From Polytrichum commune (Eukaryota > Streptophyta > Polytrichopsida > Polytrichales > Polytrichaceae), in contig OX485809.1 of NCBI GenBank assembly GCA_950295325.1, positions 30,518,144-30,582,143 of the forward strand: a stretch of 64,000 nucleotides of DNA, written 5' to 3'. The notes beneath the pieces were generated by a model. The model worked only from the letters and a program-made list of their open reading frames with translations, was not told where the DNA came from and did no database searches. Numbering within the stretch: the stretch's first letter is position 1; each line of letters begins with the position of its first letter. Shown in pieces: positions 6,594 through 61,310 of this stretch. The position numbers and the translations under genes were made by a program.

Positions 6594-9500
6594 TGAGGAT
6601 AGGGTGAGAGGATTAGCACCTCCAATCACAATCCCTTAACCTTCACCTTCAAAGTAGGGACTAATCCCCTTCCACCAAGCTTCCTTCTTCCTAAACTACC
6701 AAGGTGGATCCAAAAGTGGGCATTTAACCCGCGGAGCTCACCTTGCTTCACCTTACCCCCTACTCACATTATCAAGGCATACTCTTATTGAATTCAACCT
6801 TGAAATAATCACACAACACATTCTAAAGCCTAAACTTAAATCCACACCACACTTCACTCTTTTTATGTTTTGTGAATAATCATAATACATCAAAGTCAAA
6901 CTAAAATTGGTTTCGAAGAGTTAATCACCACATGTGGGCACCATTTTGGGCTCACAATTGGTTCCAATTCCAAAGAGAAATAGTGTTGTTCCCCAATTTT
7001 GTTTTCTTTCCACTGCACAAATCTTATTTTGTATTGAACATGCCTTTGAGGAGGGTCACATTGGAATTACACATGAACTATTCCATGCATATTCCTTGGT
7101 TCATGGAACATAACGTTTTTCATACCTAGAACAGTAATTTGTGGGATCGGCAATATTTAATGGAATATTCTCCTATATTTGGACCAACTGTGACAATATT
7201 CTATGGAATATTGTCAGTCCCACATAACAATGTTATGGTACTGAATAATGTTATGAACTTTGTGTTGAAATTGATTGTTGCTATGTCAGGCTATCATCGA
7301 TTGAATATTGCATAGATAGATTGAAGGGGTTGAAATAGTGTTTTTTTGCTTCCAATTTTATGAATATCTGATTCATGTTAGTTTTAACCTCTTTGTTATG
7401 GAGTTGACCTTAGATCGAAGATGTGTTATTTGAAAGTTTGAAAGTATGGGTTGAAGATAGAAGTAATTTGGGGTTTGCTTGCAATATAAGCTTGTTAGGG
7501 ATGAACTTTAGAATACATGCATGCAATTTTTATACATTATTCTCAAAGTTCTCTTCTTTTCAAAGTTTTTCATTCCTAAAGTAGAGTATGAGTGAGAGAA
7601 GGAATTAAGCATCACATACATGAGTACCTCGAATTCATCCAAGATGAATGCCCTGAAATGGTACGCATCCCTAGTGTTACTATTTTAAACTAGTATCAAT
7701 GAACTCACAATAGTCTAGTCCAAGTCATTTGCAATGAATCAGCCATAAACATGTAGGAGGTTTGTTTCCATGATAAGTGGATGAAATGTACACTTGCATG
7801 CGATAATTCCCTTTGTCCACGTTGAGGTCAATGGATTGATAATAAATTAAAATGGTATTCAGATTCATTTTGGGCCTCTTCTTCACACACACACACATGT
7901 GTTCAATATTAAGATTATGTTCAATATTATAACAAAATCTTCATGATGTGGAACCCTTCAATTATCAAAGGGTTTTATCATTAGTATGCAATTATCCTAA
8001 TTTGGTGGTTTCCAAAATCTACACAACATCGTAGGCTTCATCCAAACAAGAAATGGTTGTGACAAATCTAGAAGAAAGAAAGAAGGATGACTTAAATGTG
8101 TGTGATTGGTATGAAAGATGATGTTGCTTCGTCTTTGAGTTGGTCTAAGTCTATATGTAATTTGAAATGGGCATCACGAGATCAATCAAAAGACCTCCAA
8201 AGACAATTGTGTCCTATCAACGATGAACACCTTGTATGTATGTGGACAAGTTGACATGCATCTATGTGTTCCAAGTGCAAACTCCTAACTTCCTACATGC
8301 TTGGTTGAGAATATCCAATTCACCCAGACACCCAATGTGATTGGGTGGATCACGAGTAATAAGATGCACTTGAAACCAAATCCTATGAAGGTCTCCCATC
8401 CAAACCCTATTATAGGGATCTAACTTGAGGTCTTGGGTATGAGCCACCTTGACAAAATTAATCATATGAACTCATCTCAAAATATATTGATTTCTACACA
8501 TATTAATAACTATGTAGTGTATTGCAGTTAATAGAAGATAAGATTCTATTTGGTGAAAGATTGTGAGGGATTGAGTTGACACCCTTGTCTTAACCCCATG
8601 CGTTTCCATGTCAGTCAAGTGAATCCCACTCTAGTCATTTTTGGCACTTGAGCTTCAAGAACTAAATTGTTGTAATATATGTTGTAATTCAAATTGAGAG
8701 CTTCATTTGGTGCACTAACTAGCCTCAAGATGGACTATTGTCCCATTATATCATTTCATAAACGCCAAAATTTGTAGAAATTAAAATTTAAGATAATAAA
8801 ATTAAATAAGGATTCTTTGGGGGGGGGGACGTCAATTGTCAAGTTTATCAAATTCATTTTTGGAAATAAATAAATAAAATTATTATTAGATTTGAAAACG
8901 CCCAAGTAGGATAGTGAAAACCATGAGCAAGAAGAAGAGGGCTTGCCAAGATGTAACTAATCATTGCATATGCAATTAGGAGCCATTGGAAAAAATTCCA
9001 ACCATAGTGCCACAATAATGAGCAGGAGGCATTAAAGATAAGTAGGAGCCTTAACATGATGACCACCTAAGGAAGCCCCGTGGGGGCTCATTTGGCAGTA
9101 AAGGATTAAGGGGTTGAGATTGGACTCAAGCTTGAAGATTGGTTAACTGAACTTGGAGGAGTGTTTTCTTGAGTTGGTACTAACATGGGAAAGTCATGTC
9201 ACATTAGCATCACTTCGATTTTCTCAAATTTGGGACATGGACCCTAATGTAAACTCCTTGGGTCCCAAACTAGCCACCCGGGGTTCACACCCCACTGTTG
9301 GAGGGTGGAGGAGGCCCTCGTAGAAAAGGTGGTGTTGTAATATCGTAGATCACTTGGCACATGGGCAATCTCATGCACTCTAAACTTGAAACTTGAAACC
9401 TCTAGTAGTTTGCTTACACCAAGTTGATCTAAAAGGCAACAAGAAAATGCAGGATTGAACTTTAGACCTTCCTCAATCATGATTTGCTTAATATGTATGC

Positions 9501-9699
9501 GAGCTCAATATCTACATGTCCATGTGCCGAAGGTGCTCATATAAATCTTAATCAAAGAAGTCCAAATTATCATTAAAGACCACTGAGTTGAAAGCAAAAA
9601 AAAAAAGGCAAAGATATCTTGCAAAACTCACTCACAACACTTAGGTGACATCAAGTGAAGAGAACAAAGAAGTGATTGGAAAGAAAAGAAAAGAAAAGA

Positions 9700-10092
9700 T
9701 AACGCCTGTATTATGCATACCGGCGTGAATGTGAGCCCGTTAACCCTATATTGATCTCGGGGATCCGAGATGCAATATTGGGTGTTATGCCTCTTGTGGG
9801 AGGTGGGCTCTGGTGTAGTGCAAAATAATTTCCACCTTATGGTGGTGGGATAGGGTTTTGTTTGTTGTCAAGTTTCCTTTTATTTAAGACCAAATAGGTA
9901 AGGTATTTAATGGCATTTTGGTGTATGTTTTCCATGAGGGTTTTGATGTGGGTTTTGGGGATTTTCAGGTTGGTTAATTGTTTGATGGAGTTTTCGTGAA
10001 TAGCACCTCTTACTCCTGCGGTGATAGTAACGAGGGGGTTGGTATTCCATCCGTTGGCTCTTAGTGTGATAATTAGCGGGTCATATTTGTTG
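9700..10092 (-). mobile_element. 3' end of a non-LTR retrotransposon (C-terminal ORF fragment plus 3' hairpin)
   Basis: On the minus strand a continuous frame of about 80 codons from roughly 10092 to a TAA at 9839-9837 has the C-terminal pattern of LINE polyproteins: DPLIITLRANGW, ITAGVRGAIHENS, IKTLMENIHQNAIKYLT and LVLNKRKLDNKQN. An in-frame TGA just upstream breaks the frame, and no reverse transcriptase follows upstream. Downstream on the same strand, in the presumed 3'UTR, an inverted repeat at 9744-9782 can form a hairpin with 15-17 pairs. It is a 5'-truncated, decayed copy. A link between the hairpin and template recognition by the reverse transcriptase is inference from other LINEs. 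Confidence 0.75.
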
Positions 10093-10960
10093 TGTCATCA
10101 CGTGATTGGAATTCACAAAGAATCACATAAACTGGCAAATAGAAATGCGTTGTAGCTTGAATCCAATATATCTTAGGATTGAAAAAGCACATAATCCACT
10201 TCTTTCGTTTCATGTCTCTCAAGTCTCTATGAACCTTTTGCATGGCATACTAACAACAATCACAAAAGAGAATAGTACATCAAAGATTTCGTGATAGTTG
10301 AGGTGCTTTTGATAGATCTAATTACGCTTCTAGTAAGAGGTGCTTCAAATGCAAGCATGGTGATTCTCATTCTTCCTACTTCTTTCCTCTCAAAGTCCCC
10401 TGCTTCAAACCCTAATTCTAACCCCGTGCTTCTCCTTTAGTTTTCTTTAAAATGGAGCAACATGGACATCTTATTAAGCATACTTCATGTCAACGTGTCC
10501 ATGAGTGCGCTCATGAAGTGTTCGCCATTTGTCATAATGGGCTTAACGGAATTTTGGTTGATCAAATGGGTCTTGGAAATAAGTCAAGAAAATTAGTTTG
10601 CTTGCCCATTTGAAAGGCAAGAAGATGCATCTCAAAATGTTGCTTGAGAATCAAGCGATGAGTTTAGAGTCTAGCATAATCAATGAATTTGGGCTTACAC
10701 TTAGGGCTTGTGCCCTCCACCCGCTGTCCAAAAGACGTTTAGGCAAGTGCACTTTACAATGGACACCACTTGAAATTCACCAAATTTAAATGCGGTACAT
10801 GAGAATTGATTATTCTTGTTTATAGAATGAAGGTGATTATTTTCATAATTTCATGAAATGAAAATTATAGATGACCTACAATGGTTTTCTTTCAAATATG
10901 TATACTTCAATTTTGGATATGGACTTTTAAGTTTTAAGGTATGTAAGTTTTTTTCATTTA
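10093..10960. other. Intergenic, nothing recognised
   Basis: AT-rich sequence with only short open frames (10106-10294, 10598-10789) that show no motif. No repeat shared with the rest of the window was noticed. Confidence 0.5.
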
Positions 10961-10964
10961 TATT

Positions 10965-11290
10965 TGATTGGTGTGTATTAAGGTGAGTATCGAAGCAAAC
11001 AATACAAAGACACATGTTTAAGAGAGATTGGACTATGTTTTCAACATTTATTAACTACTATGCACTCGATAGTGAACACAATTGGAAAGACATTTTTCTT
11101 CAAATAAGGAATCAACGGACATGCACTTCCATTAACCAAAATCAAACCAAGAGTTGTTTGATTTTCACTGATTTTTGTTGATGTTTCATCATAAATTTGC
11201 TAATACAAAACAAATTTGAAGACACGAGGTCAATAGAAGACGGAGAACAAGAAAAAGTAACCGGATTACACCCACATACCTTAACTTAGA
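10965..11290 (+). repeat. MITE-like element copy (family A)
   Basis: Family A recurs many times in this window. Its signature is an AT-rich start with 'ttgagtggtgtgtggttaggtgtgg', then 'acacatgtttaa(a)agagattgga', 'gttcaatagt' and 'aattggg', and an end of the type 'aaccggattacacccacat..ccttaa'. This copy carries 'gattggtgtgtattaaggtg', 'gacacatgtttaagagagattgg' and the terminal 'aaccggattacacccacata' followed by ccttaac. It is directly followed by a second copy at 11330. Confidence 0.6.
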
Positions 11291-11329
11291 TCAAGAGAGA
11301 CACGCCTAATTCAATAAACTGTCTTAATC

Positions 11330-11560
11330 GTACACCTATGTTTGAGTGGTGTGTGATTCGATGTGGATCCAAGAATGGACACCCATGGACATGCTTTCAA
11401 CAATAGAGATTGGTTTATGTCCTCAGAACATGTTACCAAGACTCAATAGTGAATATAGTTGGGGGAACCTATATACCCATTTAATGAGCATGAGAATTTC
11501 CATTTTGATAATGAACATTCAACAACCAAAAACCACGAGGAAAGTGGCTATGGCCTCGAA
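11330..11560 (+). repeat. MITE-like element copy (family A), 5' part
   Basis: Contains the family A start 'cacctatgtttgagtggtgt' and the internal blocks 'caatagtgaatatagttggg', 'gaacctatatacccatttaa' and 'tgagcatgagaatttcca'. The 3' terminal motif is not recognised, so it appears truncated. It lies in direct orientation behind the preceding copy. Confidence 0.6.
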
Positions 11561-11808
11561 TTAGATTTGCTAATCATTTCATAACCCACTAATAGCGTGT
11601 TTCATATCCAAGGAGAAGTGGACTAGTCCCATGCGTATATCCTATTTGAGATCCTACGATTCTCTCAGTTTTTGAGGTGGACAAAGAAGGTCCCAAAAGT
11701 TTCACCCAACCTTCAAATAGGCTCCAATACACGACGAGCTAACGAGCTTGTAATAGAATTTTTTCTCAAAGGAGGGTCAAACCCAAGGTTTCATACCTCT
11801 TTGTACTA

Positions 11809-11935
11809 GGTAGCGGTCATCTACAGAGTGGCTACCGGGTGTAGCAGGGGAGCAGAACCTGCCGAGTCGCGTCAGCGACGAGGGAGGTTCTGTTCACCTG
11901 CTACACCCGGTAGCCACTCTGGATGACCTGCTGCC
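11809..11935. repeat. Large near-perfect palindrome upstream of the recombinase gene
   Basis: Left arm from 11816 (gtcatc..cagagtggctaccgggtgtagcagg..cagaacct) is mirrored by a right arm ending at 11927. Counting outward bases that still pair, the structure spans about 11809-11935. Arms are about 45-50 bp with a few mismatches. The centre holds a second perfect 5-bp stem (gtcgc/gcgac at 11866-11870 and 11875-11879). The sequence is clearly more GC-rich than its flanks. It ends about 190 bp before the recombinase start codon. Possible roles (recombination site, transcript hairpin, element boundary) are inference. Confidence 0.9.
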
Positions 11936-12126
11936 ATACGTAGCCGATGAAGGATCTCAAAAATAGTTACCTGCCTATCCAGTTACTAATAGGTACCTTC
12001 CTTGTTGGCGGGAGGTAGGAATTTCAAAAGTGTCACGCCGAGCTATCTCCAACACTTCTATTCTCAGTTTAGGCTTTTTGTGCTCTGTCAGTTCTGTCTT
12101 TGTTGTTTGCCAATCTTGTCGCTGTC

Positions 12127-15100
12127 ATGGAAGGTAATCAAGAGGATGGTGACGTTGAGCAACATCAGCCTATGCCGTCATTCAAGTTGTTTAGTGATGA
12201 CGATGAGTTGGAGAGGCCGTTAGAAGTTGGTACTTCAAGGGGTAGAAAGAAGGGACGTTCTGGCACCAAGTTTCGTGGATCTAGATCTGGAAGGCGCAGT
12301 CGAGGTCGAGGACGAGGACAAGCTCCTGTGCATCGTGATTCACACGGTGTCGAAGAGATCTATGTTCCATCAGAAACATCTTTGTTGAATTCATCACAGT
12401 TTGCTTGTGGTGCAGATGGCGTTTTGTTGAGTGATAGCCATAATGTTGTTTCAAGTGTGCAAACTGTTTGTATTGACGCACCTCCATCCTCAGATGTTCG
12501 TGTTGATGGTGTTGATTCGAACATTGTGAGAAGCAACACTATTCCCAATGTTTTGAATGCACCAGTGTTTGTGAACACTACTGTGTGTGCAGATCTCACA
12601 ACTGCTGCATCCGTAAATGCTACCTTCATAAATGGGACAAGAAGTGATGGCAATCCAAGCTCTAGTTCTGTACATCTTGGGGAGGTTCCAGTGCATGCTA
12701 GTGAGTTTCCACTCCAAGATAGATCTTCACAGGACCTTGTTGTGCATGTGGCACATGCGATTGTTCCATCTTCCTCGGAATTTCTGGATTTAGATCAAGA
12801 GGATTTCAATAGTGTCTAAAATGGCGATGAATCAAACAGTTACCGAAACGAGAGGTGGTGTATCAATAGATTTAATGCTTGGCGTAGGCACATGAATATC
12901 CCCACTGATATCCCCGTGGAAAAGATTCCACTACAGGAACTTGGTGTGATTCTTAGCAAGTTCTTTTTGATGGTTTGCAAGGTTGATGGCAACAAGTATC
13001 CAACCGAGTCCATCAAAAACCTCTTGATGTCTTTCAATCGCATAATTCTAAGAGAGCAGAAAACTCGTATCAATCTGACTTGGAATGAGGAGGTTGAGTT
13101 CAATATTCAGAGGCATCCGTGGTTTATTGGTGCTTGTCGCGCCGTACAAAAGGCAATGACCAAAAGTAAGGATCTAGGGGCCAATAAACCTCGGAGGAAA
13201 GTCGATCCTCTAACTTATGAGCAGGAGAAGTTAATCTTGGCCCATCCTTTACATCAGGTTACATCTGCTCATGGGATTCACAAGAGAATGGCCTTTTACT
13301 GTTTTATTGTCTTCCTCATCAGAGGTAACACTGAATTGTGGAAGGTAATGGTCAAGGACTTCACAATTGAAGTGGATCAACGTGGACGTGAGTTCTTGAA
13401 GTAGGTGTCCTCTCTTCAGAATCCATCAATTTTTAGAATCTACAAGTGCCTTTGTTGTTCTATATATGTGCACTAAAGTTCTGAGTATGAGCGTAATATT
13501 ATTCTCATTTGAATGGCCTTTGGTCTTGAGGTTCAGAATGATGCATGACTAACAACTTCAGTAATTAGGTGTCTACGGGCCTGCTCGGAGTCTCAAACAT
13601 TTTCGGTAGTTTGAGTATGATCATATTAACAATATTGATATGTTGTGCAGGTACGATGAGCGTACTTCAAAGAACCACAAAGTTACACTCAGCAGGTTCC
13701 AAGAAGAACACTTCAGGAGGCCAGTAGTTTCTTTCGATCCTGATGTAGTAGCCACATTTCGAGCTCTTTTGTCTCATATGCCAACCAACTCAGAGCATGG
13801 TCATCTATTTCTTGCTGCAATTGTCAATCCACGTTCTAATATTTGGTTCAGAAGTGGCATCAATGTTGGTGAGTCTGCTATGAGAAACTGGATGCGTCAG
13901 ATGTGTAAGACAGTAGGTCTAGTTGGTGATTTTACTAATAAATCAGGGAGAGTGACTGCAATTTCACGCATGTCAGCAGGTATGGTCCCTAGAAAAGCAA
14001 TCGCTTCAGTTACTGGTCATCGTGATGAAAAGACTCTTGAAAGGTACGATAGAACGTTGCAATTGCAACAAAACGCTGCCCAAGCTCTTTGTAGGGAACC
14101 TTACGATGAGGATGGTAATCCTCTTACATATGAAGACCATTATCGCAGGCAAATGGAGCATTACCATGCGCATGAAAATGTGCTAGAGGATAGTACATCA
14201 GAACTTCCTCCCTCTCATGGAAGTGGCATCCAACAAGGTTTTGGTGGCCGACTCCAGATCCGATCTGCACCGGACCAGGTTGAGGAACAAAATTTTGTTT
14301 CTGAAGCTTTTGAGGAAGATGTTCATAATACGAGTGAAAATGATGATGAAATTGTTGTTTGTCCTGAAGTTCAAGAGTGTGGCCAAAATTTAGACGATCC
14401 TTCTATTCTCCCACCAACAAAGACTAGGAGATTTGATTCCACTTCGCATGTCAGATTCCAGGTTCCTCCTACTACAATTCCCCATGCAAGTGCCTTTCGT
14501 CCAAGTAATGTGCACAGTGCATTTCGTCCAGTAGTTTCTTGCCGACCTCATGTGCCGCCTCCAATATACAGACCTCAAGCAGCTCCATTGCAGAGGCAAT
14601 TTTATACCCCTTCAAGGCCTTTTAATCATGTGTACAAACCATACGATATCTATCATGATAGGGTTTTTGCTCCTCCGCCGAGGCCTATGGCTCCTTATCA
14701 ACATGTTCAGTCTATTGGTCAGGCAAATCCCGGTAACATCAGGACATGTTGCGGTAACATACCATATGTTGTGACACCTAATACATCTACCCCGGAAGCT
14801 GTGTGGTTAGAGTACGTTAAAGAATGCTGGAATTATGAATGGACATCTTTTGAGAAAGAAGATTTCAGTCATCACATCCCGGCTACTACTGTTGATGCTG
14901 TAAATTTACCGTGTGTCCAAGCTGTTTCAAGTGGTCAATGTGCAGAAACTAATGATGTTAATCAGGTCATGCAAGATGCTGAGAGGAATAACCAACAAGT
15001 TGGTGAAGGAGTTGCAGTATTGAATCCCGTGGCATTGCAACAAGTTGATGTCCCTAGGCAAGCTGATGTTGGTCGAATTCAGTTCCATGCTGGAGTTCAC

Positions 15101-15196
15101 CACCACTACAATATTGTTTTAGGCGATCCCATCTCTTTGTCAAGAGTTTTGGAGAATATATTCCAACGAACTGGACGTGATGGTTCAGGGAATTAG
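12127..15196 (+). CDS. Crypton-type tyrosine recombinase (DUF3504 family), one in-frame TAA
   Basis: Predicted to cut and rejoin DNA through a tyrosine intermediate. Exon 1 is 12127-13400 and exon 2 is 13651-15196; the GT-AG intron restores the frame as REFLK-YDERTSKNHK. The N-terminal ~230 residues hold an Arg/Gly-rich stretch (GSRSGRRSRGRGRG). The next part has the Crypton SAM-like region (RFNAWRRH, LSKFFLMV, then DPLTYEQEKLI). The catalytic domain shows Arg I in FLIRGNTELW (codon 13321), a box II NKSGRVT with Arg at 13949 but Lys where His is usual, GHRDEKTLERYDR with His at 14018 and the candidate nucleophile Tyr at 14045. About 380 Pro/Tyr/His-rich residues follow the Tyr, an unusual extension. 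A TAA at 12817-12819 interrupts the frame between the N-terminal part and the recombinase core; both sides share the same frame. The ATG at 12127 is the first in frame. Relatives are known to me from fungal, oomycete and animal Cryptons and from QRICH1/ZMYM/KCTD1. Family is confident; activity is not. Confidence 0.85.
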
Positions 15197-15297
15197 TGCA
15201 GGAAGATTAGTGCAAACCCAGTGCAGGTATGCGATTGAATTAATTGTGTTGGCAACTTTGAGCATGGGTTGATCTGTAGCTAATTCCTCTGCCTGCA

Positions 15298-16680
15298 TTA
15301 ATTTGTGCAATGATCTGTAGCTGGCTGTTCATGTGCCTGCCTTACTTTGTTTTCGATCATCCTCCTGGATATAGATTGCACCCTAGCTTGATAATTTCTG
15401 AAGCTAAATGTGTTTTTGGTGTGAATGGTTAGCATATTTTGTGTTTTGTTTTGTTTCGAATAATCTGTTTTGTTCCGGAAGTCTTTTTCAGCAATGTAAT
15501 GTTGAGTGGAACTTCGAATGTATTTGCAGGTGGGTACATTGTCATGGGCTCCCGCACCTCTGGTAAGACTGAGGTGGCTACCACCCGAGCTACATGAGAC
15601 CAATTTGTTCCTTAGAATACAACAACACGTCTTCAGGTGTCATTCTGGAGGTCATTCTGTGAACGAACCTCTGAATTTGAGCAGGATATGAGGTGCTTAG
15701 CTCATACTGGAAAAGAGGCCTTACCTGCCTCATGCTTTTAATCCATTTGGTAGAAAGAGGTGTTTGAATATAGTGCATTAATGCACTATTCATTTGCAAG
15801 CACCCACCCGATGGTTTTGGAAGGTCCTAGAGCTAGAATAGGCTGTCAATAGATGTTGCATTAGACCCCTAACCTGTGAGGTTGATTGGACCTTGCTCCA
15901 GTCCAAGTTCCTTGGATCAACACTAGATTCATGCAAAAGAACACATAGTAGAGGAGATGTTTGTGCTTTATATGGCATCGATCTTGAGCATCCAAGATGT
16001 CAAATGGTGGCTTGTGCACTCTCATTGTCAATTCTGAAATCATTCATCAGATGCTCAACAAAAATAAAAGCAGGGGGAGAAGTATGTAAGCACCCCTTGT
16101 CGTGTCTCCTGGTAAGTGTTGGGTTCTATTTGTCTCTGAATTGTCAATTGATCTGGTATTAGTGTAGTTGTACATCACTTTTTTGGTAGTTAACCAATTT
16201 GAAAATCCATGGAATGATTCACAAGAGGTTTAGCCTATTGGCTAGCAAACTGTACCATTGGTTTTTGTGTACCTGAGCTGTTTGATTGAGGAAAGGCATA
16301 CAAAAATTCTTGCATACTGCTGTGGAACCTTAATGTGAAGAGGTCACCTTTTTGCAGCAATTCCCTATTTGATGGTGTTGGAACATGTGCAGATAAGATT
16401 TAAACCATTCTAGGTTCAATAGCTAATGCAATTGGGTAGGGTCTATATGATTGTTTAAAGTGAGAATATTTACTTCGACCCCTTATAACTTTTGCATCTC
16501 ACCTTGATTCTGAAACTTGCAATGACAATCTCCAAGCTGACGGATCAATCATTCCAACAGATTTCACCAGCTGATGTGGCTAGGGTGCAATCGATCTCCA
16601 GGTGGATGATCGTATGCAAATTAACGCAAGCACTGAAACAGCTAGCTACCTACAGATCAATACACAAATTCGATAGTCCC
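15298..16680. repeat. Inverted-repeat pair flanking about 1.2 kb downstream of the recombinase
   Basis: Sequence around 15298-15400 is the reverse complement of about 16565-16670. Shared blocks, read on the + strand at the right copy, include gctagggtgcaatc, ccagg.ggatgatcg, gcaagcac and cagatcaatacacaaatt. Identity looks like roughly three quarters over 100 bp. Near the left copy there is also a short direct repeat of 'gatctgtagct'. The 1.2 kb between the arms shows no recognisable gene. This could be a MITE-like element or a pair of decayed element ends. Confidence 0.65.
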
Positions 16681-17315
16681 GGCACACTTCACCGCAAAAA
16701 GTTCCAAAATCAAAGGCAGGGTGCAAGACGATCTCCAGAAGCACGATGAGCTACAACGGAGAGAAAGAGAAAAGATATTTGAAAATGGATTCCCGCCCAT
16801 TTGGGGCTAATTGGTGTAATAATCTAGTCCCACATGGTGAAAAGGGTAGGTAAGTAGGTCGGAACAAGTTAGGTAGGTCGCAACACAGTAGGTCGCTATG
16901 GTCTTGGACCGTCCAGTGGAGAGCCAATGGGACTTCGCCACATCAGCTTCTATATCTCCAGAATCGGCTACGAGGGACTGTACAGATAACTATATTGTGT
17001 TAGTAAGCTTCAGATCTTTCCTCACAATCAAGGATTTATGTAGATGGGAGCTTATGTTACAGCCCATAATCGTCAAAAAATGATTATTTTCTTAGTTTAG
17101 GTAGAGCTCACAACGGTTTTACACTATTTACAATAAATTGGAACTTTTCTATGAGATGCTGAAGTTCATCGTTAGTGTGCAGTTTGGGGGGGGGGGGGGG
17201 GGAGGGGAGTTTGAGAGGCACAGTGGAGGAGATGAGGCTTGGGAATTTGGAGTGGAAGCAATTGATCTGTGTATCTTATGCAAGCACATGTTCTGTGATT
17301 GGGTGGGGATTGCAG

Positions 17316-21080: not shown

Positions 21081-22227
21081 AACCAGCGATAGCACGACTC
21101 ATGCGAACAATCTAAATTTCTCTCTCAACAATGAGTTTGGCCCTCAATGAACCGAAATGAAATAGGTTGCTCATAATTCGCATTCAAACACTACCAACTA
21201 CCTCCGAGGATTCACCACAAGTGGAAAGAAATTATTGATAGTGTACGCAAAACAAACAATTGGAAAATTCATAGGGGACTAACTCCCAACGAAGAATTCC
21301 ATTGACTTGAAAACGAGAACTCTAATCTCTATTAGTTCAATCTGCTCCAATTAAAAAAGGTGAGTAAGAAGAGAAATCTCATTTTCTGGCTTCGGAGCTG
21401 GATACCCAAATATCATCAACATGCCCACATGCAGATCGCTCATTCTTTTGCAGCGCAATCACATGTCAAAATTATGAGCTTCTATCTTGGATCTCCCGAC
21501 TTCGTGGTTTTAAGCCCTCCAGTGAAGTGGGAGCTTGTTATTGGGTTCTGTAGCAGTTGGATTACTCAGTTGAAGTTATAAATTTCAAGCTGGGGAGGAT
21601 GGCAGGTGGTAGAATGATTCTGGTCATCCCCCTCTATAGCTTGCTCATTTGTTAATTATCAACATATTGAACCCACATTTCGTGTTGTGATTTTAGGTTC
21701 AGTAACTTAAGACAAAGAAAAAAACGTCTCTCTAGATAAGACTTATCAATGCTTTCACCTCAATTTGTAATGTATTGATACTCTCAGACGTGCCCACTTG
21801 TGGAATTCATTATTAACATCAGTTATGAAAGGGTTGGAATCATTTCTAATTTCTGAATCACTCACTGCTTATGATGCCAATCAATTTTTGCAAGATCGTA
21901 TACAATATGTTATTTCCACATACAGCTGGCTGCTATGATGATATACGAACATTAGCTTGTCCGTATATTGTACACATGATGTAACCCAGTTTTCTTTATA
22001 ATGTCGCCCCTCCACTTGTGCAGACACACACTTCTTCCTCTGGTGTGCAATTGGAGACCTTGTGTCAGCAATTTTGGATGTCATCGTAACGACATCTTTG
22101 CATCAGATGCAGGACACCTATAAGAGCTTGCAGCTCCCTCACAATGCTCCAGTAAAGGATTGAGGGACTGCCCCAAGGGCTGAGAAAGACACATTTTAGA
22201 GCTAAGATTTCTGACTGGATTGATAAG
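21081..22227. other. Intergenic / 5' flank of the STIG1-like gene
   Basis: No gene recognised. The last few hundred bases should contain the promoter and leader of the Cys-rich gene at 22228, but no TATA box or transcription start is clear by eye. Confidence 0.45.
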
Positions 22228-22926
22228 ATGGAGAAAAGGTGTTTACAAGTCTCAACAGTAGTCATCCTGTTGGTGTCTGTTGTGTGCTTAAAGGTCGCAT
22301 TTGGTGAAGATGAATCCATCCCATCTGTAGCAGCAAGGGATGCACCATCGAGGTTCACTTTGAGCCGCTACATGCTAACTCAGCGAAAGCAGGCAAAGAG
22401 CGACTCTTCGTGCGATTCTCGCAGCGACTGCAAGTATTTGGGATTCACCAAGCCCAGGTGTTGCAACGGCCAGTGTGTGAACGCAGCCACAGATGACAAC
22501 CACTGCGGCAGTTGCAACAACAAATGTAAGAAATCTGGAGCTAAGTGCTGCAAGGGCAAGTGCAAATTGCTCTCTGGTAGTGATCGATCAAATTGTGGTA
22601 GATGTGGCACCAAGTGCAAGTCTGGCTATGATTGTTGCCAAGGTATGTGCAGATTCGTGGCGGGAGGTGACCGGTTGAACTGTGGGGAGTGCGGTCGGAA
22701 GTGCAAGAAAGGCCACATGTGTTGCAAAGGGCACTGTAAGAACACGAGTGGCAATGACCGCTTTAACTGCGGTGGATGTGGGAAATTGTGCAGTTTTGGT
22801 GCAGATTGCTGCAAAGGAGCGTGCAAAAGTGTCCATGGAAGTGATTCTTCCAACTGTGGCGGGTGTGGGAAGAAGTGCAAAGCAAGGTCGCAATGCCACC
22901 TCGGCATTTGTGGTTACAATGACTAA
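22228..22926 (+). CDS. STIG1-like secreted cysteine-rich protein
   Basis: Single-exon protein of 232 residues. The N-terminus has a short basic start followed by VVILLVSVVCLKVAFG, a clear signal peptide, so the protein should be secreted to the apoplast. The mature part repeats a double motif: CCxGxC followed after about 8-10 residues by D(R/S)xNCGxCGxxC, four to five times. Examples are GRCGTKCKSGYDCCQGMC and GGCGKLCSFGADCCKGAC. This regular CCxGxC / NCGxCG spacing is the hallmark of the plant STIG1 family, known in flowering plants from stigma exudate and apoplastic signalling. Function outside flowering plants is poorly known, and nothing here shows the partner. The ATG at 22228 is the one that supplies the signal peptide, and TAA closes the frame. 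Open frames on the other strand are shadows caused by the regular codon pattern. Confidence 0.88.
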   Translation: MEKRCLQVSTVVILLVSVVCLKVAFGEDESIPSVAARDAPSRFTLSRYMLTQRKQAKSDSSCDSRSDCKYLGFTKPRCCNGQCVNAATDDNHCGSCNNKCKKSGAKCCKGKCKLLSGSDRSNCGRCGTKCKSGYDCCQGMCRFVAGGDRLNCGECGRKCKKGHMCCKGHCKNTSGNDRFNCGGCGKLCSFGADCCKGACKSVHGSDSSNCGGCGKKCKARSQCHLGICGYND

Positions 22927-32036: not shown

Positions 32037-36369
<4,333 letters not shown>

Positions 36370-47713: not shown

Positions 47714-48240
47714 TTTAAATTGTGAAACGACTTCCCCTGCATTGCACTGCAAGGTTTGACAAGTAGTGGCACATCCATCCCTCTTACATTTGTGGAATGT
47801 GATGATATAGTTCCAAGTGCCATAGAGCAAATTTTTGAATTAGGAAAATTAATTCTTTGCAGACAGCAGGATGGAAGATTCAGTCTGCACGTTCCAATCA
47901 TTGTTGCCAGTCTGCCAACTTATATTAGACAAGTAATAGCAAATTGAAATGTCCAAGAGAGAAAACCTACTTTGTGCAAAATACAGGAAGAGTGCCATTG
48001 ATAACGTTGAGGCAATTGTTCAATAACTTGATATTAATAGGGCACCTATACATCTTGAGTGTCCCCATGTACATTCTAAGTTTGTGAATGCCTAACTTAG
48101 TGGATTAATTTGTATTTGGCAACAAATTAATTCAGTTAGTTAGTGGATTTTTTTGTTTTGAATTCCTGGCGATCCAATACTTCTTGTGTTTTGTATAATG
48201 GTGACACCTATGGTAAGTAAGGTAGACATGCTTAATTCCA
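47714..48240. other. RF1 3' flank
   Basis: Downstream of the RF1 stop codon; must contain its 3'UTR. No gene recognised. Confidence 0.4.
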
Positions 48241-48244
48241 ATAA

Positions 48245-48993
48245 TGCAATATTTTGGACACCTATATTTGAGTGGTATGTGGTTAGGTGTGGATCTAAGA
48301 ACAAACACCAAAACTACATGTGTTTAAAAGAGATTGGTCTAGGTTCAAAATATGCTAATTGTTCTAGGTTCATTAGTCAACATAATTGAGGGAACCTATG
48401 ACCACTTAATGAGTACAAGAATCTTCACTTTGATAATGAGTAAAATATCAGATGAGGTCGAAATTTTTGAGGCAAATGGCTACATGCACGATTTGGAGTT
48501 GCTAATCATCTTGCACTATATGCATGTTTCATATCTTACTAGAAGTGGGTGCCTCTTTTTTTGAGAACATGAAAATTGACTTCCATTTGAGCAGGAAAAA
48601 ATTGATTTTCGCAAACAAATCAGTGTGGACCCCAAATTATCGGGTTTGACATTGAATTTGTGCCAATTAGATTTACACGATGAAACTCGTGTTGCACTAG
48701 GAAATCTAGAATGAAGCACCAACAAAAATTTGTTTGAAAATCGGACCTCTCCTGATTTAATCATGGTTTTTGAAAATACATGTTTGTCAATTTCCTTAAT
48801 CGAATGCACAAGTCCTCCCAATTGTGTTCACTATTGAGTGTGGAATAGTCAATGAAACTTGTAAACATAGTCTACTCTCTTTCAAACATGTGTCTTCATG
48901 GTGTTTGTTGTTCGATCCTCATCTAACCACACAACACAATAAAACATAGGTGTTTGATTAAGAAAGGTAACCAAATAACACCCGTGCACCTTA
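48245..48993. repeat. Two MITE-like copies (family A) facing each other
   Basis: A plus-strand copy (about 48245-48545) begins 'cacctatatttgagtggtat' with 'ggttaggtgtggatctaag'. It is followed by a minus-strand copy (about 48600-48993) whose end reads, reverse complemented, taaggtgcacgggtgttat..ggttacc, the family terminal motif. The two share internal blocks such as 'acatgtgtttaaa' and 'gaacacaattggg'. This may be one element with long inverted arms or two nested insertions. Confidence 0.65.
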
Positions 48994-57829: not shown

Positions 57830-59990
57830 AGTTAATTCTCTAGAGTGGCGGAGTGCGGTAGCCTCTGCGAGATAGAGGCTAATGTTAAGTTGTTGGTCTA
57901 ATTGAGAGAGACTCGAGGCTCCTTAAAACTATGTTCTCAAATAGTGATGGAAACTTATCTCTAATGGTGTTGTATAGGGGACATTCCAACATGAAATGTG
58001 CCTAATTTTCAACTGCAATATAAGAGCAAAAGTGGCATAGTCTAGTATCTCTAGAGATAGGGATTATCGTTCATCATTTAGTTTCAATAGCAAATCTAGG
58101 GTTCGAGGTGCAATAGGCGGCAATGATCTTGCGTTGTGGTGGAGTTGATGGTTGCTCCAATTCACATTCGTATTTAAGAAAATCCTTCAGGTGGGGATAA
58201 TCTAGTTTCTTCCCAAAGAGATGGAAAGCGTTTCACTCTTTAGCAAGAAAGACCTCCTTGATATCAACATATGTTGTTTTTTTGATGTGGTTGGCTTGTC
58301 ATGGGTTTCCTTATGAGATAAACCCCATGATGTCTTCCACATGGTTGTTGATTTATACCAAGTGTTAAAATTCTCATTCATCTAGGTGTGGGGATAATGA
58401 GGCTACTTCATTGACTAGCTAAGAGGGGGATAGGTGGGTGAACCATTGTTGAAAGCCCATAGTATGCTTGAGAGCATATAATTCTATGGGAGGTTCTCCG
58501 AGTTTAGCCAATAATATATGATAGGTAATCGAAGAACGCACTTTGATGTGAGACATCATAGCGGCACCACGGGCCTTGGCTTGGTGGTTAGGGCTCATGA
58601 CCCCCAATGAGGAGGTTGTGGGTTCCATTCCCCATGCCGGTGTGGTGCTCACCACCTTAGTCCACCCAACTATGGTGGGGGGTCCTTGGACCTTGTTGTA
58701 TGGGTACCTCAAAGCCCTTTGGGGGGATACCATGTCCGGTATCTTCAAGGCACTAGTGGCTAGCTAGGAACTAGTATAGTGTGTCACTATAGTGCCCATC
58801 CTCGAAAGGGGAGAGTAGTATTGCCCCAATGTCCCCTTGTCCGGTGGGCATCGGGTCATTGACATTACGAACGGACACTTTATTCACGCCGGCCCCTTCA
58901 AAGGGACCGGAGTTTCTATCTATCTATCTTTCTATCTATCTGAGACATCATATGCATCTTCACGCCATTTTCAAAGACTTTCCAATGAGAGTTTTTTCAA
59001 TTCGTCTTCCCAAATTTCAGTGCCATACATGAAAGTATGAAGCACCAAAGCCTTGAATAGGTGAGACTTGGGTTCCCAACATGTGACGCCGACTACCGCT
59101 TCTTTCCTTAAAGTTCCCATCAAGGTTTTCATACTTGCGATTCCTCGCCTTTTACTAAATGGCTCAATCTAACCATGTGAATAAAAATCAATCCCAAGGT
59201 ATTTGTATTCATGGGTGATCTCAATTTGGTCCTTGGCTAGGTAAATTGTCTCTTGGTTTAATTTCCTTTTGTTGCGGCCAAATATCATGATTTTAGTCTT
59301 AGCCATATTGACTTCAAGGCTAGAAGAAGTGCAAAACTCATATAGCTTGTTCAAAAGTCTTTGTAGCCTTGCGCTTGATCTAGAGAGTAAAACAACAACG
59401 TCAACATAAAGAAGAATGGCAACCACTGTGTTAAATAAGCATGGAGAATCCCCGTTGATCTCGTCCAAATATGTTTCAAGTTCTTCAATGTACAAGTTGA
59501 ATAGTATGGGGGAGAGGGGCATCCTTGTTTAACACCAATGTCAGACATTACTTCATCATGTGTGTCACCATTTATTTGAACTTTTGTGTAGATTGCGGTG
59601 TGCATGGTTTTTAGAGCTGATTGCAAGTGAGGTGGTACCCCTAATCTTTGGAGGTATTCCCAAAGATTGTCATGCGAGATTGTGTCGAAAGCTTTCTTGA
59701 AATCGACAAAGCAAGAATAGAGACATTGACATGCAAATATCTCTTGTTTGATTAAAGTACACAGTGTAAGGATGTGGTCCAAAGTAGATATACCTTCCTT
59801 GAAATATGCTTGCCCTCTTGCCCTAACCTAAATGAATTAGGCACGTCTACCCAAGAGGATGGAGTTTTAAATAAGAGCGAGGATTTGTGTAGAAAAGCAC
59901 CCAAGTTTTGATGATGTGGAGACTTCTTTGGTTAAAACCCACAACATGTGGGTAGCGCCATTACAATTCATAAATTTTTAAGGCTTGGGA
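57830..59990 (-). mobile_element. Degenerate non-LTR retrotransposon (LINE) with reverse transcriptase
   Basis: Read on the minus strand from about 59990 down: a degenerate RT start, then TLDHILTLCTLI, VDFKKAFDTISHDNLWEYLQ (RT block with the first catalytic Asp), IGVKQGCP, then after a frameshift near 59512 PLSPILFNLYIEEL. Next is YVDVVVLLSRS, where a canonical Y-A-D-D would be expected (second catalytic Asp lost), then ITHEYKYLGIDF. Further on come LFKALVLHTFMYGTEIW, the post-RT stretch YHILLAKLGEPPIEL and a terminal ECPLYNTIRDKF segment near 57.9 kb. Frameshifts, stops and a mutated active site show that it is dead. A SINE (58561-58940) interrupts it. Endonuclease sequence was not found, so the copy is 5'-truncated or too decayed. 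Confidence 0.82.
58561..58940 (+). mobile_element. tRNA-derived SINE with 12-bp target-site duplication
   Basis: Starts with a tRNA-like head: an A-box-like tggcttggtgg at 58577-58587 and a B-box ggttccattcc at 58621-58631, spaced as in tRNA genes, which would act as an internal RNA polymerase III promoter. A tRNA-unrelated body follows, and the element ends in a (TATC/TTTC)n tail rather than poly(A). Perfect tgagacatcata copies flank it (58549-58560 and 58941-58952). It is inserted inside the LINE in the opposite orientation. The 3' 80 bp recur as a truncated copy at 38984-39065. The mobilising LINE partner is not identified. Confidence 0.92.
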
Positions 59991-60092: not shown

Positions 60093-60739
60093 TGGACTCC
60101 ACATTACTCAACTTAAGCCAATACATTTTGTGGGTTATGGCTAAGTTGGGTAACGTTATGGAGGGAATGTTGTAGATGTGTATCCAACACTTAAAACGAC
60201 AATTCTAGGGAACTTTTGTTCCCCTACTGGGCACTTTGAAGTTGGATGAGCGGGGTAGAGGTGTCCAAATATGTTAGTGACCTAATTTTGCTACTTATTT
60301 TCTATCCTCAAGTTGGTTGCTATGTACTTCAAAACACTTAATTATAATATTATTCTAAGGATGGAAATGCAAATCAGTGGTTGAGAGAGACGATTGTCAA
60401 TGGTCAACAATGTTTGTATTAACTCTAAATTATAGAATGTTTAAGTTTTATGGATTTGACATCTTCATGCATTTCCTAATTCTTGAACATTTGAGTGGCA
60501 TTTTTTTTTATAGTACGTTAATAAGGAACTTGAGTGCTCAAGGTGTTGCTATAGTAATAGGCACATCTACATTAAAAAAAAAATTGAATGCCAAACAATC
60601 CAAGATGAACTCTTTGGAATGTTGAATCCAAGGCATGCATAACTTACCAAACCAACATTATGTATTAGCGTCATACACTTGAAACCTCCAAATATATGAC
60701 ATTTGATACATAAGGTAAACGTGTGTGATTCAAGTAGTT

Positions 60740-61310
60740 ACATTAATTGGACATCTATATTTGAGTGGTGTGTGGTTAGGTGTGCATCCAAGAACATACG
60801 CCATAAAGACATATGTTTAAAAGAGATTGGATTACGTGCTCATAATGTGTTAACCATTTTAGGTTCAATAATCAACATAATTGGGGGGGGGGACCTATGT
60901 GACCTATGGACTTTGATAAGTCATAGCAATTCAAGATTAGCTCCAAAACTTTATGGGATTGATTATGTCTTCTTTTGATACATTTGCAGAGTGGTGTGTG
61001 GTTAGGTGTGCATCTTAGAACGGACGCCATAAAGACACGTGTTCAAAAGAGATTGGACTACGTGCTCATAATATGTTAACCATTATAGGTTCAATAATCA
61101 ACATAATTGGGGGGGGGGACCTATGTGATCTATGGACTTTGATAATTCATAGCAATTCAAGATTAGTTCCAAAACCTTATGGGATTGATTATGTCTTCTT
61201 TTGATACATTTGCAAACACACATAAATTTCGACCTCGCAAATTCGAGTAATATAAGATAGAAAATAACAACAAGTAATCAAATAAGGCCCATCTACCTTA
61301 ATATTGGTTT
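60740..61310 (+). repeat. Family A MITE with internal 226-bp tandem duplication
   Basis: After 'acatctatatttgagtggtg' a 226-bp unit (60763-60988) is repeated almost exactly at 60989-61214. Each copy contains 'ggttaggtgtgcat', 'gttcaataatcaacataatt', a G tract and 'gattatgtcttcttttgata'. The right end reads 'atcaaataaggcccatctac' then cttaat, resembling the family terminal motif. Confidence 0.75.

Follow-up and report, generated by a model that had tools for sequence, protein, structure and literature searches.

Gene structure at the locus

The window analysed here comprises 64,000 nucleotides of the Polytrichum commune genome assembly (contig OX485809.1, positions 30,518,144 to 30,582,143). 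Its forward strand carries a putative tyrosine recombinase gene. Exon 1 (12127..13400), recognised from the reading frame and from aligned relatives, encodes an unstructured N-terminal part, a helical N-domain and the Arg-I region. It is followed by a 250-bp intron of the GT...AG type (13401..13650), whose splicing is inferred from the sequence, and by exon 2 (13651..15196), which encodes the catalytic domain, with its Lys, Lys-x-x-Arg, His and Tyr residues, as well as a long tail and is open over 528 codons. As described in the earlier note, the two exons can be joined in frame across this intron, and the predicted product contains the three motifs named there. These are IRGNTELW, with its Arg codon at 13321-13323; NKSGRVT, with Lys at 13940-13942 and Arg at 13949-13951; and GHRDEKTLERYDR, with His at 14018-14020 and Tyr at 14045-14047.

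An in-frame TAA stop at codon 231 of exon 1 (12817..12819, forward strand) had been overlooked in that reading. Because of this stop codon, the window copy is inactive as a source of the full protein. The same TAA is absent from three close relatives, L022, L023 and L024, each of which has other stops. Related genes of the same genome were assigned to families A to E, the window gene being a member of family A. The reading frame breaks at the same place, with the intron following EFLK, in families A, B, C and E; family D is continuous at this position and shows its break further on.

Other features of the window include a gene for a STIG1-like cysteine-rich protein (22159-22923; Pfam Stig1, E 1.8e-28) and a reverse-transcriptase fragment of an unrelated retroelement (59172-59528; RVT_1, E 5.4e-13).

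Identity of the encoded protein

The assignment of the predicted gene product to the tyrosine recombinases is supported by profile searches. The joined translation, for which an HMM search had been suggested in the earlier note, matched the PHROG integrase profile phrog_1 with E 1.4e-9 (1.2e-9 when a somewhat longer stretch of the joined protein was used). The PHROG integrase was also matched by four of the five family representatives. The match of the window protein to Pfam Phage_integrase (E 0.001) is weaker than Pfam's own cut-off; three of the five representatives matched this profile, with a best E value of 3.3e-5. A profile built from five rows retrieved the solved integrase 3nkh (E 2.4e-4) as its sole match at E<=1.

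The gene had been read as displaying the full set of Crypton/DUF3504 features. The motifs are indeed present, but the DUF3504 profile did not recognise the window protein (no PF12012 match at E<=5), and one of the five representatives gave a weak match to it (E 0.011). The N-terminal part matched QRICH1 (PF25561) with E 0.02-0.03, that is, under the cut-off (one of the five representatives, at E 0.027). Pfam scans of these proteins yielded no GCR1_C or C48 matches. The ALOG profile PF04852 was matched neither by the five representatives at E<=1 nor by the window protein at E<=5.

The catalytic set of tyrosine recombinases consists of Arg, Lys, His/Lys-x-x-Arg, His/Trp and Tyr. In the alignment, Arg, Lys, Lys-x-x-Arg, His and Tyr are all kept in families A to D, with Lys at the position of the second-box His; the row for family E ends before box II. 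Protein identity to family A amounts to 34-56% across families A to D.

A prokaryotic or viral origin was considered and rejected, as no match was found among 50,697 phage records. Stretches fitting the search pattern numbered 33 in viral contigs and 15 in genome contigs, with no confirmed relatives among them.

Copies of the element in the genome

The recombinase gene lies within a larger unit. The whole family A element spans 5169 bp (5.17 kb; 11804..16972, forward strand), from TACTAGG on the left to CGGCTACG on the right, and its ends are common to L022, L023 and L024. The earlier note had described a span of 12127-15196, which holds for the gene but not for the unit itself. The recombinase is the only recognisable gene of the element. 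It is followed by a non-coding 3' part (15197..16967), in which the copies differ between about 15443 and 16811 and in which two ORFs gave no Pfam family at E<=0.01. The stretch at about 15443-16811 is replaced or lengthened in further members of family A (L022; L024, at about 7416-9857); three ORFs from this stretch of L024 and L022 likewise gave no Pfam family at E<=0.01. The elements concerned measure 4.5 to 6.2 kb. The non-coding 3' part also holds an inverted repeat of about 80% (15300-15387 / 16579-16670), which is present in L022 too.

A count of copies in the source genome had been proposed as a check. With exon 2 as the query, at least 29 protein matches were obtained in the chromosome-scale assembly (407,808,757 bases, 64 contigs). 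Members of family A are 97-100% identical over the query. Insertions of this family with two ends comprise the window copy, L022, L023 and L024; a further left end was located on contig C1 by a left-end search, and the right end of that copy was not found. Family B consists of L025, L028 and L029, which are 86-95% alike over most aligned pieces, family C of L026 and L027, and family D of L036-L039. The remaining protein matches outside these groups are single or decayed.

One more family A copy, at 30.49 Mb on contig C7, was rejected as an independent insertion, since it sits in a nearly identical stretch. Namely, window positions 1-26392 and C7:30485952-30512342 (L042, L021, L043) form near-identical tandem copies with a period of 32,192 bp, the twin lying upstream and including both the element and its neighbours. 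Identity is 99.96-100% over the parts compared. Either the duplication is very recent or the arrangement is an artefact of assembly.

Contamination by fungal or animal DNA had been named in the earlier note as a condition that would refute a plant origin, and Cryptons have been recorded from fungi, animals and stramenopiles (PMC3212892). The findings do not support contamination. The contigs are chromosome-scale, and the window lies inside a 42-Mb contig with plant genes alongside (STIG1-like, peroxidase, EF-2-like and DEAD-box helicase). Related insertions occur on six contigs (C1, C2, C3, C4, C6 and C7), and one of the insertions hit a repeat of which the window also has copies. Contamination is thus extremely improbable.

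All four family A copies that were read carry at least one stop and none is intact; L023 and L024 also have frame-changing gaps. The dN/dS values for six pairs of family A copies range from 0.30 to 0.93, and the pair L023-L024, with 0.93, is near neutral. These values are read as a purifying signal. Single-copy differences numbered 116, and changes from C to T or from G to A made up 72 of them, which is the expected pattern of methylated plant transposons.

Ends and target sites

The four two-ended family A insertions start with TACTAGG and end with the same right terminus, with unrelated flanks outside. Elements of family D start with TACTAGAG and end with TTTAACG, and those of family C start with TATTAGG and end with GGTTACG. 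Exact ends were seen in four family A, four family D and two family C insertions. The left ends of family B were not found, so that the element of this family could not be delimited.

Each of these ten insertions is bordered by imperfect 5-nt direct repeats, of which the left one is variable and the right one is fixed within a family. In the window, the left core, CTTTG, lies beside the element (11799..11803), and the right core, CTACG, forms its last bases (16968..16972); both are given for the forward strand. Each of the four right ends examined in family A has CTACG, and unrelated flank begins directly after it. The left cores are CTTTG, CTATG, CTATG and ATATG in family A and CAACG, TAACG, CTTAG and TCATG in family D. 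All ten insertions have a G adjacent to the left end, and the last G is invariant. The left five bases are not the same between near-identical copies and are therefore read as part of the target rather than of the element.

With the G excluded, the left and right-end 4-mers match at 24 of 40 positions over the ten insertions. Flank controls (220 positions) gave a mean of 0.99 matches per 4-mer, or about 10 of 40, and the observed number was reached in none of 20000 resamples. One family D insertion, D_L038, has no core match at its four positions.

The target of the L023 insertion is a dispersed repeat. Two unoccupied copies of this repeat align directly across the L023 junction, with 66% and 69% identity; one of these two was in turn aligned with three further copies. 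Where L023 has CTATG, the unoccupied copies have a single CCATT, CCACT or CCAGT, which is followed by the right flank. No target duplication was detected at this target, the one compared, against diverged unoccupied relatives. A 3-nt gap lies beside the junction in the alignment of L025 against L023, and also in that of L029. The imperfect core repeats and the absence of a target duplication are both in line with integration by a recombinase. The repeat family targeted by L023 also occurs in the window at 10959-11514, 35367-35747, 48218-48948 and 60711-61214.

A scan for TAYTAG followed by a hairpin covered 13 loci, with L021, L023, L024, L027, L037, L038 and L039 left out. It recovered the known ends in L022 and L026, and it gave nothing in L025, L028 and L029, nor in L036, where the hairpin is deleted. 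An 11-bp hairpin arm in L032 was taken as a chance occurrence. Within the window, the scan marked positions 11804 (25-bp arm) and 39559 (10-bp arm). Arms of at least 10 bp were found at 3 of 979 motif sites in 20 mononucleotide shuffles of the window.

Nature of the element

We consider it very likely that this is a Crypton-like element of a land plant: a DNA transposon with a tyrosine recombinase as its only recognisable protein. Judged by sequence, its mobility is supported by the exact ends shared at unrelated places, by the core repeats and by the lack of a second recognisable gene. On this evidence, the window element is a broken copy of a recently mobile transposon. The earlier note had left the choice between a plant Crypton-like lineage and a domesticated recombinase gene. 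The sequences point to the former, a mobile lineage and not a domesticated gene, because exact ends are shared at unrelated sites and stops occur in the four family A copies.

A domesticated gene without a transposon, comparable to the DUF3504 genes of animals, would agree with the long open second exon of 528 codons, the low copy number of family A and the dN/dS values, most of which are below 1. It would not explain why, in three families, copies at unrelated sites have exactly the same ends, nor why stops occur in 4 of 4 family A copies read. Moreover, the catalytic residues are retained here, whereas DUF3504 genes are described as being without most of the tetrad (PMC3212892). Domestication is accordingly very unlikely.

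A remnant of a DIRS-like retrotransposon, in which the recombinase was kept and the reverse transcriptase lost, is also improbable, while a DIRS-like origin may still apply to the deep ancestry. In its favour, the tyrosine recombinases of DIRS and Crypton are related (PMC6681497), and the ALOG domains of plants have been traced to a DIRS1-type recombinase (PMC3537659). Such decay is difficult to reconcile with the elements of family D, which are 2.9-3.2 kb long and hold only recombinase ORFs plus short ones, and with the fact that families A, C and D share the same plan. No reverse transcriptase was detected at Pfam E<=0.01 in the 10 ORFs scanned from elements of these three families, and no long terminal or split direct repeats were seen in the window element.

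Among known systems, the Crypton-like transposon proposed here can be compared with several that encode recombinases. Crypton DNA transposons have been divided into CryptonF, S, A and I (Kojima and Jurka, 2011; PMC3212892). The elements resemble Cryptons in having a recombinase as the only shared protein, in the presence of introns and in that no reverse transcriptase was seen. They are also similar in their short direct repeats, which measure 4-6 bp in fungal and oomycete Cryptons (PMC3212892) and are imperfect and 5 nt long here. Unlike Cryptons, which are described as being without terminal inverted repeats (PMC3212892), they have a left hairpin and an inverted copy of the right end; they also differ in the weak DUF3504 match and in showing no GCR1_C or C48 match. 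The DIRS, Ngaro and PAT retrotransposons possess a related class of recombinase but differ in their ends and in their reverse transcriptase and RNase H, neither of which was found here. Among green plants, DIRS elements are reported from green algae only (PMC9033089).

The name Crypton fits in the sense of a DNA transposon that has only a tyrosine recombinase and short direct repeats, with no clade membership implied; Crypton itself is poorly resolved in trees (PMC6681497; PMC3212892). We call these elements a new Crypton-like variant.

The terminal hairpin and the predicted joined site

The left end of the window element contains an imperfect long inverted repeat, which forms a terminal hairpin (11809..11935, arms 11824-11870/11875-11921). 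It is followed by CGTAGCCGAT (11939..11948), which repeats the right end ATCGGCTACG in inverted orientation; both features are on the forward strand. The fold of this left end has a z value of -14.4 relative to 200 dinucleotide shuffles. The same order of a long hairpin and an inverted right-end copy is found at the left ends in families A, C and D. The inverted copy agrees with the right end at 24 of 25 bases in family D and at 23 of 25 in family C; in family A it extends over 10 nt and then diverges (17/25).

Given the left hairpin and the inverted right-end copy, rejoined ends would therefore fold into one long hairpin. Such a structure was predicted for all nine junctions modelled (four of family A, three of family D and two of family C), and the join lay 1-2 nt from a bulge in each of them. 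The predicted folds of the joined ends have z values of -15.8 to -20.7 (one junction per family), and those of the left hairpin without the right end range from -9.8 to -15.6.

The five family A copies contain two compensatory pairs (shuffle mean 0.92, maximum 2); none was present in the family D copies and one in two family C copies. Covariation was rejected as proof of the hairpin, being too weak for this purpose. It gives limited evidence of selection on the pairing itself, for which the stronger argument is the recurrence of one layout in three families with unlike stem sequences.

A two-sided palindrome of 69 bp, L045 (C1:28596565-28596635), has the family A left end at both edges (TACTAGG...CCTAGTA). 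About 9 kb from it lies the C1 copy L044, whose left flank recurs in reverse complement as the right flank of L045. The palindrome might be a foldback by-product of recombination.

In the mechanism that we propose, the recombinase would link the right end (...CTACG) and the left end (TACTAG...) into a circle, which would then recombine with a chromosomal site resembling the 5-nt core. The left core would be supplied by the target and the right core by the element. With less confidence, we suggest that, owing to the left hairpin and the inverted right-end copy, the joined site takes the form of a single long hairpin. Conjecturally, the folded site could be read by the recombinase or could aid it. 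The terminal hairpin may thus be how the enzyme recognises the element.

The chance that the hairpin and the inverted right-end copy are unrelated to recombination, an ordinary double-stranded core site being used, is only a little short of even. Instead they could, for example, serve as a terminator or trigger silencing, or be a foldback that repair left behind. The right-end pairing of family A, which covers just 10 nt, the weak covariation and the loss of much of the hairpin in L036 are all compatible with this explanation. It accounts less well for a layout that recurs at the same end, in differing sequence, among three families with about 34-49% protein identity to family A, for the fact that the part copied in inverted form is precisely the right end, and for the position of the join next to a bulge in 9 of 9 predicted folds.

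A role of the folded joined site in recombination would recall the attC sites of integrons. The integron integrase is also a tyrosine recombinase, and the predicted joined site could, like attC (PMC8946536), form a long hairpin that is imperfect and leaves bases near the crossover unpaired. It differs from attC in that the hairpin is partly contained in one end and is completed only on joining of the ends. The similarity to attC is a resemblance only. The ALOG transcription factors of plants are regarded as going back to a mobile element, namely to the N-terminal domain of its tyrosine recombinase, and complete elements of the ALOG type are described as not known from streptophytes (Iyer and Aravind, 2012; PMC3537659); the proteins of our elements differ in having no ALOG Pfam match. 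That the recombinase of a land-plant transposon acts, in the manner of integron attC, on an attachment site which is formed by joining and folded into a hairpin, and that the family may be living relatives of the ALOG ancestor element, is a tentative and rather doubtful suggestion.

Significance for plant genomes

The table of Kojima and Jurka (PMC3212892) lists 24 species of animals, fungi and stramenopiles and no plants. Reviews of 2024 (PMC11397423) and 2026 (PMC13317346) state that no Cryptons have been identified in, or described from, plants. Among the literature matches listed, none reported plant Cryptons in its title or at the start of its abstract; subscription papers, preprints and Repbase reports were outside the scope of this search. 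Taken together, the reviews and this negative result make it likely, though not established, that Crypton-like elements of plants are described here for the first time.

With several families recently active in a single land plant, the DNA transposons of plants would gain a further class. These elements are also a possible source of plant genes derived from recombinases. In addition, the system would make it simple to test if a hairpin-forming attachment site can serve a eukaryotic recombinase.
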